Below the pieces are notes generated by a model. It was not told the origin of the DNA. It saw only the letters and a program-made list of their open reading frames with translations, and did not search any database. From Marmoricola sp. (GTDB lineage Bacteria > Actinomycetota > Actinomycetes > Propionibacteriales > Nocardioidaceae), in assembly GCA_025965315.1 (NCBI GenBank), contig JAOPXD010000092.1, forward strand, positions 1-34,728: DNA of 34,728 nucleotides. The letters are read 5' to 3'. The first letter of the stretch is position 1. Each line of letters begins with the position of its first letter. The translations under genes and the position numbers were made by a program. Positions 37 through 1,825 of this stretch are shown piece by piece.

Positions 37-125
37 GGAGGCGTCGCCTAGCCCGGTTTATGGCGCCCGCCTGCTAAGCGGGTTCAGGTTAATCCCTGTC
101 GGGGGTTCAAATCCCCCCGCCTCCG
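37..125 (+). tRNA. tRNA-Ser (anticodon GCT)
   Basis: A class II tRNA cloverleaf is visible. The acceptor stem GGAGGCG (37-43) pairs with CGCCTCC (118-124), with G125 as discriminator. The anticodon stem CCCGC/GCGGG encloses the loop CTGCTAA, giving anticodon GCT. A long variable arm and a T-arm GGGGG-TTCAAAT-CCCCC follow. The long variable arm and the anticodon together identify serine (AGC/AGT codons). No CCA is encoded directly after the discriminator. Confidence 0.97.
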
Positions 126-132
126 CCCAGAC

Positions 133-166: not shown

Positions 167-324
167 GCTTGCCCAGGTCGGGCGCTGTCCGATTGCACGA
201 ACCTGCAGGAAGGTGCACTGCACGTTCATGAGGTAACTGGTCTACTTCCCGCGCGACCGGTGCTCCGAGAGGATAGGGACATCCGGTCGCAACCCCTGAG
301 CGACCGGGCAACGGAGGCCCACCG

Positions 325-474
325 ATGAGCAAGCTCAAGTTCCTGGCCCGCTTCGCGGCGGCCGCGATCCTCGCCACCGGAGTTTTCGCGGCCTCCGCAC
401 CCGCAGACGCAGCAGCGACACACACCAGCCACCACCCCGTCGTCAAACCACTTGACACCGGCTGGGGCTCCTGA
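325..474 (+). CDS. Small secreted pre-peptide (49 aa), candidate signalling peptide
   Basis: This short gene is below usual ORF cut-offs. It starts at ATG 325 with a good ribosome binding site, ACGGAGG, at 311-317. The 49-residue product has a basic N-region (MSKLKFLAR), an Ala-rich hydrophobic stretch at about residues 10-24 and an alanine-rich c-region containing APADAA, which together look like a Sec signal peptide. Cleavage near residue 30 would release a tail of about 19 residues, ATHTSHHPVVKPLDTGWGS. The gene runs convergently into a LuxR/TrmB-like regulator gene and the two share a perfect terminator hairpin. I do not recognise a named family. A secreted peptide signal sensed directly or indirectly by the neighbouring regulator is an inference from the arrangement; a small cell-surface or antimicrobial peptide is the alternative. 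The coding call itself rests on the RBS, the signal-peptide pattern and the terminator. Confidence 0.7.
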   Translation: MSKLKFLARFAAAAILATGVFAASAPADAAATHTSHHPVVKPLDTGWGS

Positions 475-547
475 GGACCCGGGACGCACGCGACGGTCGT
501 AAACCCCCCTGATCGAACGTCGCAGGCCGCGAGGCCCGTCCCGTGAT

Positions 548-581
548 CAAGAGCGGAGAGAACCCCCACTCTCCGCTCTTG
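548..581. terminator. Bidirectional terminator between peptide and regulator genes
   Basis: The arms CAAGAGCGGAGAG (548-560) and CTCTCCGCTCTTG (569-581) are a perfect 13-bp inverted repeat around an 8-nt loop. The hairpin lies between two convergent stop codons (472-474 and 592-594). It ends in CTTG on one side and, read from the other strand, in CTTGATC, so it can serve both genes. Confidence 0.9.
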
Positions 582-591
582 TCATGCCCGG

Positions 592-1602
592 CTACTGCTC
601 GGGAGCACGCTCCCGGACGCGATCCCGGAGCTCCTGCTGTGCGATCGCGTGCCCGAGCTGGAAGCGCGTCTCGACGCCGTACTCGGCCTTGAGGGACGCG
701 ATGTAGCCGGCGTAGGTCCGCGTGCTGACCCCCACCCGCTTCGCGCTGGCGTTGTCGCTGTGACCCTCGACGAGCATCCGCACCGTCATGTTGTGGACGT
801 CGTCGGCGATCTCCCGCTCGGTCGCGGACGCGCGGTCGGTGAAGACCCGGGCCCGCTCCCAGAAGCGCTCGAAGATGTCGGCGATGTACGCGACCAGGCT
901 GGCGTCGTGGATCACGATCGCCACGTGGCTGCCCTCGAGCCCCGGGACGATCGCCAGGCGGCGGTCGACCACGATCAACCGGTTGAAGAACTCGTCGAGC
1001 GTGCGCACCTCGGCGCCGGCCCGGGTGACCTGGTCGACGTACTCACGGGTGACCACGCTGCGGCGGGCCGAGTGCTGGTACAGCGTGCGCATCTTGACCC
1101 CGCGGGCGAGCGCCCGGGTGTCCCGCTCGACCGCGGAGTCGAGGATCGACGCCGAGCGAGCGCCATCGGGTTGCGCGGTGAGCAGCTCCTCGGCGGCGTC
1201 GCCGACGGCAGCGGTCAGGAAGCGGTTGATGTTCGGCAGCCCGCGCAGCTCCACGATCGGAAGGTCCGCGGGCGCGGTACGTCGGAAGGCGAGCCCGAGC
1301 TCAGCGAACGTGGTCGCCCAGCCGGTGGACTCGGCAAGCAGCTCGGCTGCACGCCGGCCCATCGGGGCGACCACCCGGGACTGGACGATCGCCGGGTCCA
1401 CGGGGAGGTACCTGTTCGTGGTCGGGTCCAGCGCGAGGAGCCCGAGGTCGAGAAGGAAGGCGAACGAGGCGTGGTCCGCCCCGCCCGTGGCGATCCGCCG
1501 GTCGTCGTGCGCGATCGACCCTTCGACCACCACCTTCTGGTAGAGGTCGCCGGCTTCGTTCTGCAGCAGCTCACGCTGGGTTGCATCGAATTCGGGGATC
1601 AC
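592..1602 (-). CDS. LuxR/TrmB-like HTH transcriptional regulator
   Basis: A cytoplasmic DNA-binding regulator of about 336 residues. The N-terminal ~90 residues resemble a winged-helix, TrmB-like region. The middle (about 130-255) resembles the regulatory domain that TrmB-type proteins share with phospholipase D folds: it contains RRSVVTREYVDQV and then RTLDEFFNRLIVVDRR. The C-terminal segment (about 264-323) looks like a LuxR-type HTH, with the recognition helix in AKRVGVSTRTYAGYIASLKA. A longer reading frame runs upstream to 1776, but it would enter tRNA-Arg. I therefore choose GTG 1602, which lies 7 nt after a CATAAT -10 box with no ribosome binding site, so the mRNA is probably leaderless. 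The gene is convergent with the small secreted peptide gene. The regulator class is fairly clear; its target and ligand are unknown. Confidence 0.85.
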   Translation of the reverse strand: MIPEFDATQRELLQNEAGDLYQKVVVEGSIAHDDRRIATGGADHASFAFLLDLGLLALDPTTNRYLPVDPAIVQSRVVAPMGRRAAELLAESTGWATTFAELGLAFRRTAPADLPIVELRGLPNINRFLTAAVGDAAEELLTAQPDGARSASILDSAVERDTRALARGVKMRTLYQHSARRSVVTREYVDQVTRAGAEVRTLDEFFNRLIVVDRRLAIVPGLEGSHVAIVIHDASLVAYIADIFERFWERARVFTDRASATEREIADDVHNMTVRMLVEGHSDNASAKRVGVSTRTYAGYIASLKAEYGVETRFQLGHAIAQQELRDRVRERAPEQ

Positions 1603-1640
1603 CTGTCCGATTATGCAGAAAAGTGCAGGCAGGCCGCACC
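1603..1640 (-). promoter_or_regulatory. Leaderless promoter of the HTH regulator
   Basis: On the minus strand a -10 hexamer CATAAT (plus-strand ATTATG, 1610-1615) is followed by 7 nt and then the GTG start at 1602. No Shine-Dalgarno sequence is present. The -35 side (around TGCGGC, 17 bp upstream) is poor. Confidence 0.5.
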
Positions 1641-1749: not shown

Positions 1750-1825
1750 GCGGCTGTAGCTCAACGGATAGAGCATCTGACTACGGATCAGAAGGTTCGG
1801 GGTTCGAATCCCTGCAGCCGCACCA
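1750..1825 (+). tRNA. tRNA-Arg (anticodon ACG), CCA encoded
   Basis: The acceptor stem GCGGCTG (1750-1756) pairs with CAGCCGC (1815-1821), discriminator A1822, and CCA is encoded at 1823-1825. The anticodon stem TCTGA/TCAGA encloses loop CTACGGA, giving ACG (Arg, CGN codons). The T-loop is GTTCGAATC. An IS element begins at the very next base, so the natural downstream flank of this tRNA has been replaced. Confidence 0.97.

Follow-up and report, generated by a model that had tools for sequence, protein, structure and literature searches.

A D-x-x-W precursor peptide gene linked to a TrmB-fold regulator in Nocardioidaceae and Streptomyces-type genomes: a probable peptide autoinduction system

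In the RRNPP systems of Bacillota (NprR-NprX, PlcR-PapR and Rgg-SHP), a small exported precursor is encoded beside a cytosolic regulator, and autoinduction is combined with control of secreted proteases, such as the M4 protease NprA and the M6 protease InhA. Here, we describe a comparable arrangement in an actinobacterium. Within the window (the whole stretch of 34,728 nucleotides analyzed here, contig JAOPXD010000092.1 of Marmoricola sp., family Nocardioidaceae), a gene for a small secreted precursor with a D-x-x-W (DxxW) core converges with a gene for a transcriptional regulator, and a dyad operator lies ahead of the peptide gene. Comparison with related genomes suggests that this pair very probably constitutes a one-component peptide autoinduction system. 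Such a system is the best fit because the linkage of the two genes is independent of orientation, four residues are conserved and repeated in tandem, the operator would let the pair control itself, the regulator has a sensor domain, and proteases are among the targets.

The likeness to RRNPP lies in the small precursor, whose export is suggested by signal-peptide-like N-termini, adjoining a cytosolic regulator, as well as in the presumed re-import and autoinduction and in the control of secreted proteases. Unlike in RRNPP, the receptor has a TrmB/PLD fold with a LuxR-type helix-turn-helix (HTH) domain rather than tetratricopeptide repeats (TPR), the ligand would be a DxxW peptide, often in tandem, the phylum is Actinomycetota, and the operator is a different one. 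The DxxW system works like RRNPP, yet is not RRNPP, because the defining TPR receptor is missing: Pfam finds no TPR in the regulator at E values up to 1, and the Foldseek matches listed are TrmB and PLD folds.

Other described systems are more remote. Archaeal TrmB and TrmBL2 regulators (PDB 5bpd, 3qph and 2f5t) share the winged HTH, coiled coil and PLD-like domain by fold and profile; unlike them, the regulator described here has an extra C-terminal LuxR-type HTH and is linked to a secreted peptide. LuxR regulators of Actinobacteria share the C-terminal HTH, but Pfam finds neither a REC nor an autoinducer-binding domain in our regulator, and hence not the pairing of an autoinducer-binding domain with a GerE HTH that characterizes LuxR/acyl-homoserine lactone quorum sensing. 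No family of agr-type systems (cyclic peptide, AgrB, histidine kinase) was found by Pfam among the regulator, the peptide and ten further open reading frames (ORFs) of the locus. The regulator differs in fold and Pfam results from the TetR-type regulators of gamma-butyrolactone (AfsA/ArpA) systems, and no AfsA family occurs among the locus ORFs. The precursor resembles yeast alpha-factor, a multicopy pheromone precursor, in that a signal peptide is followed by short units in tandem, separated by variable spacers; it differs in organism, receptor and processing. In the available part of PMC10075063, Actinomycetota signals are typically enzyme-made small molecules, and the available part of PMC4748050 treats signaling by modified peptides and gamma-butyrolactones in general terms, naming no such system; the word TrmB is absent from the available main text of a census of actinobacterial LuxR proteins (PMC3466318). 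Among the matches listed, the open-licence full-text literature held no description of such a system, most subscription papers and preprints lying outside that scope. In its ligand, receptor family, operator and phylum, the DxxW system corresponds to no family tested here, and it is in this sense, rather than in its logic, that we regard it as new; proteases under peptide autoinduction are familiar from Bacillota.

The initial annotation of the window had described a 49-codon gene with a ribosome-binding site, a signal-peptide-like N-terminus and the end PLDTGWGS, facing a 336-aa HTH regulator, all of which is borne out (Table 1). Judged by eye, the precursor (MSKLKFLARFAAAAILATGVFAASAPADAAATHTSHHPVVKPLDTGWGS) begins with a Sec-type signal peptide of about 29 to 31 residues, comprising KLKFLARF, a hydrophobic core and APADA. 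Neither Pfam nor NCBIfam assigns the peptide to a family, the NCBIfam match to SPIN (E 0.058, 13.8 bits against a cut-off of 45) being noise, and we rejected the idea that it belongs to an ordinary annotated family. The same annotation singled out the C-terminal DTGWG-like end as the part that might be conserved. The DxxW core is indeed kept; the C-terminus as such is not the conserved unit, because in many species the core stands right behind the signal peptide or is repeated. In many Nocardioides, for example, it follows immediately upon the AxA site (APAHA-DTSWG...). A freely varying tail, named in advance as speaking against a signal, did not occur: the DTGW-like core is retained and the other tail residues vary, as do the length and sequence of the linker between leader and motif among same-genus peptides. 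Precursors carry from one to seven copies of the core; some same-genus peptides have two or three (KKDSGW three times in L013, KDTGWGKSDIAHKTDTGWG in L016). Within the core, codons turn over synonymously at T/S and x (ACC/ACT/ACG, AGC/TCC).

The regulator was present in 22 of 24 same-genus genomes, and a convergent small ORF, beginning with a hydrophobic leader and carrying DTGW, DTAW or DSGW, accompanies it in all 22 loci, the peptides having been located by searching for a motif of this type. A profile search of named genomes gave a second set (the best 80 of 145 loci, all Marmoricola, Nocardioides or Nocardioidaceae), which overlaps the first in genomes. Here, 77 of the 80 loci have a convergent peptide, 72 recognized by script and five more by hand (L096, L099, L123, L146 and L153); the core reads D-[T/S/I]-x-W in 74, DYQW in L129, DLTW in L152 and ATSW in L123. 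In L094, one of the three remaining loci, the flank spans only 425 nt. A strict detector, with a pattern drawn up after the peptides had been seen, matched 73 of 78 loci in the convergent 0-1 kb interval versus 0-1 of 71-78 in eleven other combinations of interval and strand, and 2 of 390 dinucleotide shuffles. A looser detector gave 71 of 78 convergent loci, 0-4 of 71-78 in other intervals and 7 of 390 shuffles; the pattern used for core composition demands W, so that W in 75 of 75 cores follows by construction. From these controls and the linkage across loci, a spurious ORF was rejected as an explanation. When loci were reached through the operator instead, 13 of the 14 holding a regulator had the peptide.

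Beyond the family, a class-wide search found regulator matches in 56 of 296 genomes and 11 of 114 genera: 16 genomes of Nocardioidaceae, 27 of a single genus (g59; 5.8-11 Mb, up to seven matches per genome) and 13 others. A search of plasmids returned 114 records, 109 of them named Streptomyces, which supports reading g59 as Streptomyces. We examined 15 Streptomyces-type loci, L269-L281 being the 13 best matches outside Nocardioidaceae, with L282 and L283 added as cluster holders. A precursor with a hydrophobic leader adjoins the regulator, mostly divergently, in 14 of the 15, against a detector background in control loci of two matches per 515,934 bases; the repeats include 5x DSGW, 7x DVGW, 7x DSGWT and 5x DPGW/DPSW, and one precursor is single-copy. 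The linkage thus outlasts a change in orientation, from convergent in Nocardioidaceae to divergent in Streptomyces-type loci, and the short ORF expected from the initial annotation beside regulator homologues recurs in all three sets (22/22, 77/80 and 14/15). Two Streptomyces-type precursors searched in NCBIfam and four in Pfam matched no family. On plasmids, three of six fetched regions contain a DxxW-type precursor annotated as 'hypothetical protein': WP_114059216.1 of S. globosus (L349:1864-2127), with three DTGWGAP units, lies with its regulator beside MbtH and nonribosomal peptide synthetase (NRPS) genes; WP_327687178.1 of Streptomyces sp. NBC_00467 (L346:3956-4090) ends in GDSAWG near beta-methylarginine genes; and WP_328930589.1 of NBC_00048 (L350:3919-4122) ends in DTSWGG. 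A tblastn search of plasmids with one Streptomyces-type precursor returned nothing at E 0.01.

The pair is further tied together by the operator, a dyad of the form TGCA-N6-TGCA-N-TGCA-N6-TG(CA) upstream of the peptide genes. Its center lies at a median of 103.5 nt from the peptide start codon (interquartile range 100-108, 60 loci; 107 nt in the window). Exact copies occur in 61 of 73 genomes with a regulator orthologue versus 10 of 76 without (Fisher 5e-19), and among 294 genomes of the family the pattern matches in 193, its reversed control in 15. With up to one mismatch allowed, a related Streptomyces-type element, TGCAGGAACATGATGCA, is found exactly once in 16 of 18 genomes, which include the six whose loci it was derived from; it has no control match and stands 94-150 nt ahead of a regulator match. 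The common operator spacing suggests activation from a fixed position, although the operator may act in repression instead. Near the regulator start, exact TGCA-N6-TGCA was seen in the window, L005 and L015 only among the 22 same-genus loci, and a degenerate half-operator in several close relatives by eye; autoregulation is possible.

The regulator, initially described as LuxR/TrmB-like, can be specified as a PLD-like protein of the TrmB fold that carries a LuxR-type HTH in addition, as predicted by modeling. In the AlphaFold2 model, a winged HTH is followed by a long helix, then by the PLD-like domain and, at the C-terminus, by a further HTH (pLDDT, the predicted local distance difference test, 83.1), and the domain arrangement is unsure (pTM, the predicted template modeling score, 0.56). 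Among the Foldseek matches listed, TrmBL2, TrmB and PLD enzymes rank at the top (TrmBL2 5bpd, E 1.3e-14; TrmB 3qph, 2.2e-8), and a profile search matches TrmBL2 5box (E 4e-5), so that fold and profile agree on the winged HTH followed by a PLD-like sensor domain that marks the TrmB superfamily. Pfam matches to TbsP_N/PLDc_2 in the regulator and to GerE in a Streptomyces-type homologue are weak and below cut-off. By eye, the conserved stretch FFNRLIVVDRR resembles a PLD motif in which the catalytic His and Lys have been replaced, as would suit a domain that binds a ligand and does not act as an enzyme.

Beyond the peptide genes, 46 exact sites were assembled (17 of 18 in one list, one G028 site being left out; three same-genus extras; and 26 of 40 sites picked by hand among the family-wide matches listed, the other 14 picked sites lying by the regulator). 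Sixteen precede metalloprotease genes, one an unassigned secreted protein, 21 fall in a recurrent intergenic locus and eight are other sites; 11 further loci with one mismatch were chosen by eye and are a biased sample. The metalloproteases comprise eight matrixin/astacin-like enzymes (four assigned by Pfam, the others by tblastn), seven of the M4 thermolysin type and one M6 InhA, and operator-bearing metalloprotease genes of Nocardioides have signal-peptide-like starts. Site center and estimated start codon are 94-229 nt apart in 15 of these 16 genes, the start being unsure in L339. Of 35 M4 genes in twelve genomes, most of them selected for having such sites, 12 are preceded by a site with at most one mismatch, at a distance of 0.58-0.80 kb from the match to the catalytic domain. 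The L235/L242-type secreted protein has no Pfam family and looks like an S53 peptidase by eye only; it was left out of the 16 proteases.

In the mechanism that we propose, signal peptidase and extracellular proteases would release a short DxxW peptide, which would be re-imported via an oligopeptide permease and bind the PLD-like domain, which resembles the TrmB sensor. With the peptide bound, the regulator would attach to the TGCA operator as an oligomer and activate the precursor gene, in positive feedback, together with the protease genes; a structured RNA is a further possible target. The signaling link between peptide and regulator put forward at the outset is supported at the level of sequence, and the operator at the peptide gene and the co-targeted metalloproteases go beyond that proposal. 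The same operator ahead of the precursor gene would also be seen if the peptide were an output, a small secreted effector (bacteriocin-like, surface-active or metal-binding) made along with the proteases under a regulator that senses another ligand. TrmB binds sugars, and the fold match here is to TrmB; the CGGYC-type tails of some mature peptides could bind metal. We nevertheless regard an effector as unlikely, given that the neighborhood is retained through orientation changes, that conservation centers on four residues in up to seven repeats with variable spacers, as in multicopy pheromone precursors, and that the sole site found in the 16 of 18 Streptomyces-type genomes is the peptide's own promoter, as autoinduction predicts.

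A signal perceived by another receptor, such as a membrane sensor, with the neighboring regulator merely controlling production, is improbable to a greater degree: the regulator has its own sensor-like domain, and no sensor family was matched between the window's tRNAs, the search for kinases having been confined to that locus. Such a receptor would accord with a regulator model lacking an obvious membrane segment and with peptide import being presumed. That the peptide inhibits or chaperones the co-regulated metalloproteases is hardly credible; M4, M6 and matrixin/astacin-like genes do share the operator, but no second site was found in the Streptomyces-type genomes, and a folded inhibitor would need more than repeats of four residues.

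Several observations weigh against peptide autoinduction itself. The window's own genome (90.5% complete) yielded no exact operator beyond the one at the peptide gene, and 12 of the 73 orthologue-bearing genomes have no exact site. No regulator was seen in the same-genus genomes G012 (75% complete) and G019, nor a recognizable peptide in L143 and L156, despite full flanks, or in the Streptomyces-type locus L281. The 22 same-genus loci are not independent but of one ancestry, because the tRNA-Ser neighborhood is common to them. Beside the regulator, searches with the peptide sequence give convincing matches in close relatives alone; farther out, recognition depends on motif and position. In a quick tree, DxxW-linked regulators cluster (40 rows, 2 changes versus a shuffled mean of 19.6), every Nocardioidaceae row having been labeled DxxW, including L156, which lacks it. 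The largest target class (21/46) is intergenic with an unassigned product, and 8/46 sites fit no class.

Seven of the 20 loci with more distant regulators (L249-L268) contain tryptophan-ended candidate peptides of other types. C-x(2-4)-CW candidates occur in four Kribbella-like loci (a label that we infer) and L255. Small secreted ORFs beside the paralogues of L255, L258 and L259-L262 end in or near C-x(2-4)-CW or FQW and are candidates for further peptide classes; L258 has GGFQW twice and L256 ends in DWGWE. Five additional loci of the class (L284-L288) yielded a single weak candidate, in L286. We lean slightly towards a pheromone family across Actinomycetota, with D-x-x-W units in Nocardioidaceae and Streptomyces and C-x(2-4)-CW and FQW-type units by distant paralogues, each read by a TrmB/PLD-LuxR receptor. 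In Nocardioides, this family would control a structured RNA as well as secreted proteases; in Streptomyces, its targets would probably be neighboring biosynthetic clusters. If true, a conserved, gene-encoded peptide language with receptor and operator would make communication in Streptomyces and its relatives directly testable with synthetic peptides, and simple peptide inducers for silent antibiotic clusters could follow, as the S. globosus precursor beside MbtH and NRPS genes illustrates. The receptor would be, as far as searched, a first peptide-sensing member of the TrmB/PLD fold.

Table 1. Features of the peptide-regulator locus, in window coordinates
Feature	Position	Strand	Description or basis
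tRNA-Ser(GCU)	37..127	+	left neighbor; ARAGORN, Rfam
Operator TGCAGGAAGGTGCACTGCACGTTCATG	204..230	+	pattern TGCA-N6-TGCA-N-TGCA-N6-TG
GGAGG ribosome-binding site of peptide gene	313..317	+	sequence
Precursor peptide gene, 49 aa	325..474	+	Sec-type signal peptide, variable linker, DTGWG motif
DTGWG, conserved D-x-x-W core, residues 44-48	454..468	+	compared across relatives
Perfect 13-bp inverted repeat	548-560 / 569-581	.	sequence, predicted fold
Regulator, GTG start, 336 aa	592..1602	-	winged HTH, long helix, PLD-like sensor domain (TrmB fold), C-terminal LuxR-type HTH
Half-operator TGCAGAAAAGTGCA	1614..1627	.	12-25 nt ahead of regulator start codon
tRNA-Arg(ACG)	1750..1825	+	right neighbor; ARAGORN

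As first described, the pair appears to be alone between the two tRNAs: the ten further overlapping ORFs between or across them have no Pfam family match. Of the 22 same-genus loci, 19 have the tRNA-Ser next to the pair and three have tRNA-Arg within the examined flank. The perfect 13-bp repeat reported between the genes is present, as the central stem of the predicted fold (z -5.2); its role as a shared bidirectional terminator is probable rather than established, as no U run follows the stem and the terminator scan does not list it.

The 21 intergenic operator sites lie between a HAD hydrolase gene or proS and a ferritin-like gene pair, presumably of the DUF4439 type. In 18 of them, a stretch with TCTCGGGA occurs between the operator and the ferritin-like gene or at that gene's end, mostly as the loop region of a long hairpin in the predicted folds; in L236 and L237, where it runs into the last part of the ferritin-like reading frame, it may be coding instead. 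The C-rich-loop hairpin was seen in single-sequence folds only. Candidate structured RNAs, hairpins with UCUCGGGA, stand beside an exact operator in L222, L224, L225, L228, L230, L236, L237, L305, L309, L319, L322, L323, L325, L330, L333, L337, L342 and L343. A 21-row RNA alignment was poor; covariation was computed with RNAalifold on 12 of the 21 loci: 33 pairs are predicted and 13 are changed on both sides, five of the 33 (two of the 13) being the half-operator itself, and the covariation term contributes only -0.99 of -43.89 kcal/mol. Rfam gave no match at the intergenic stretch in the five loci scanned. The element may be an operator-controlled small RNA, and the main conclusion is independent of it.

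Two minor observations complete the picture. In L328 (3685-3975), the ORF of another small secreted repeat peptide, with four LENEPV-type units, starts 29 nt from an exact operator; the circuit may include it as a second peptide. In the window, directly after tRNA-Arg (1862-2863), overlapping ORFs in several frames resemble, by eye, a broken DDE transposase.
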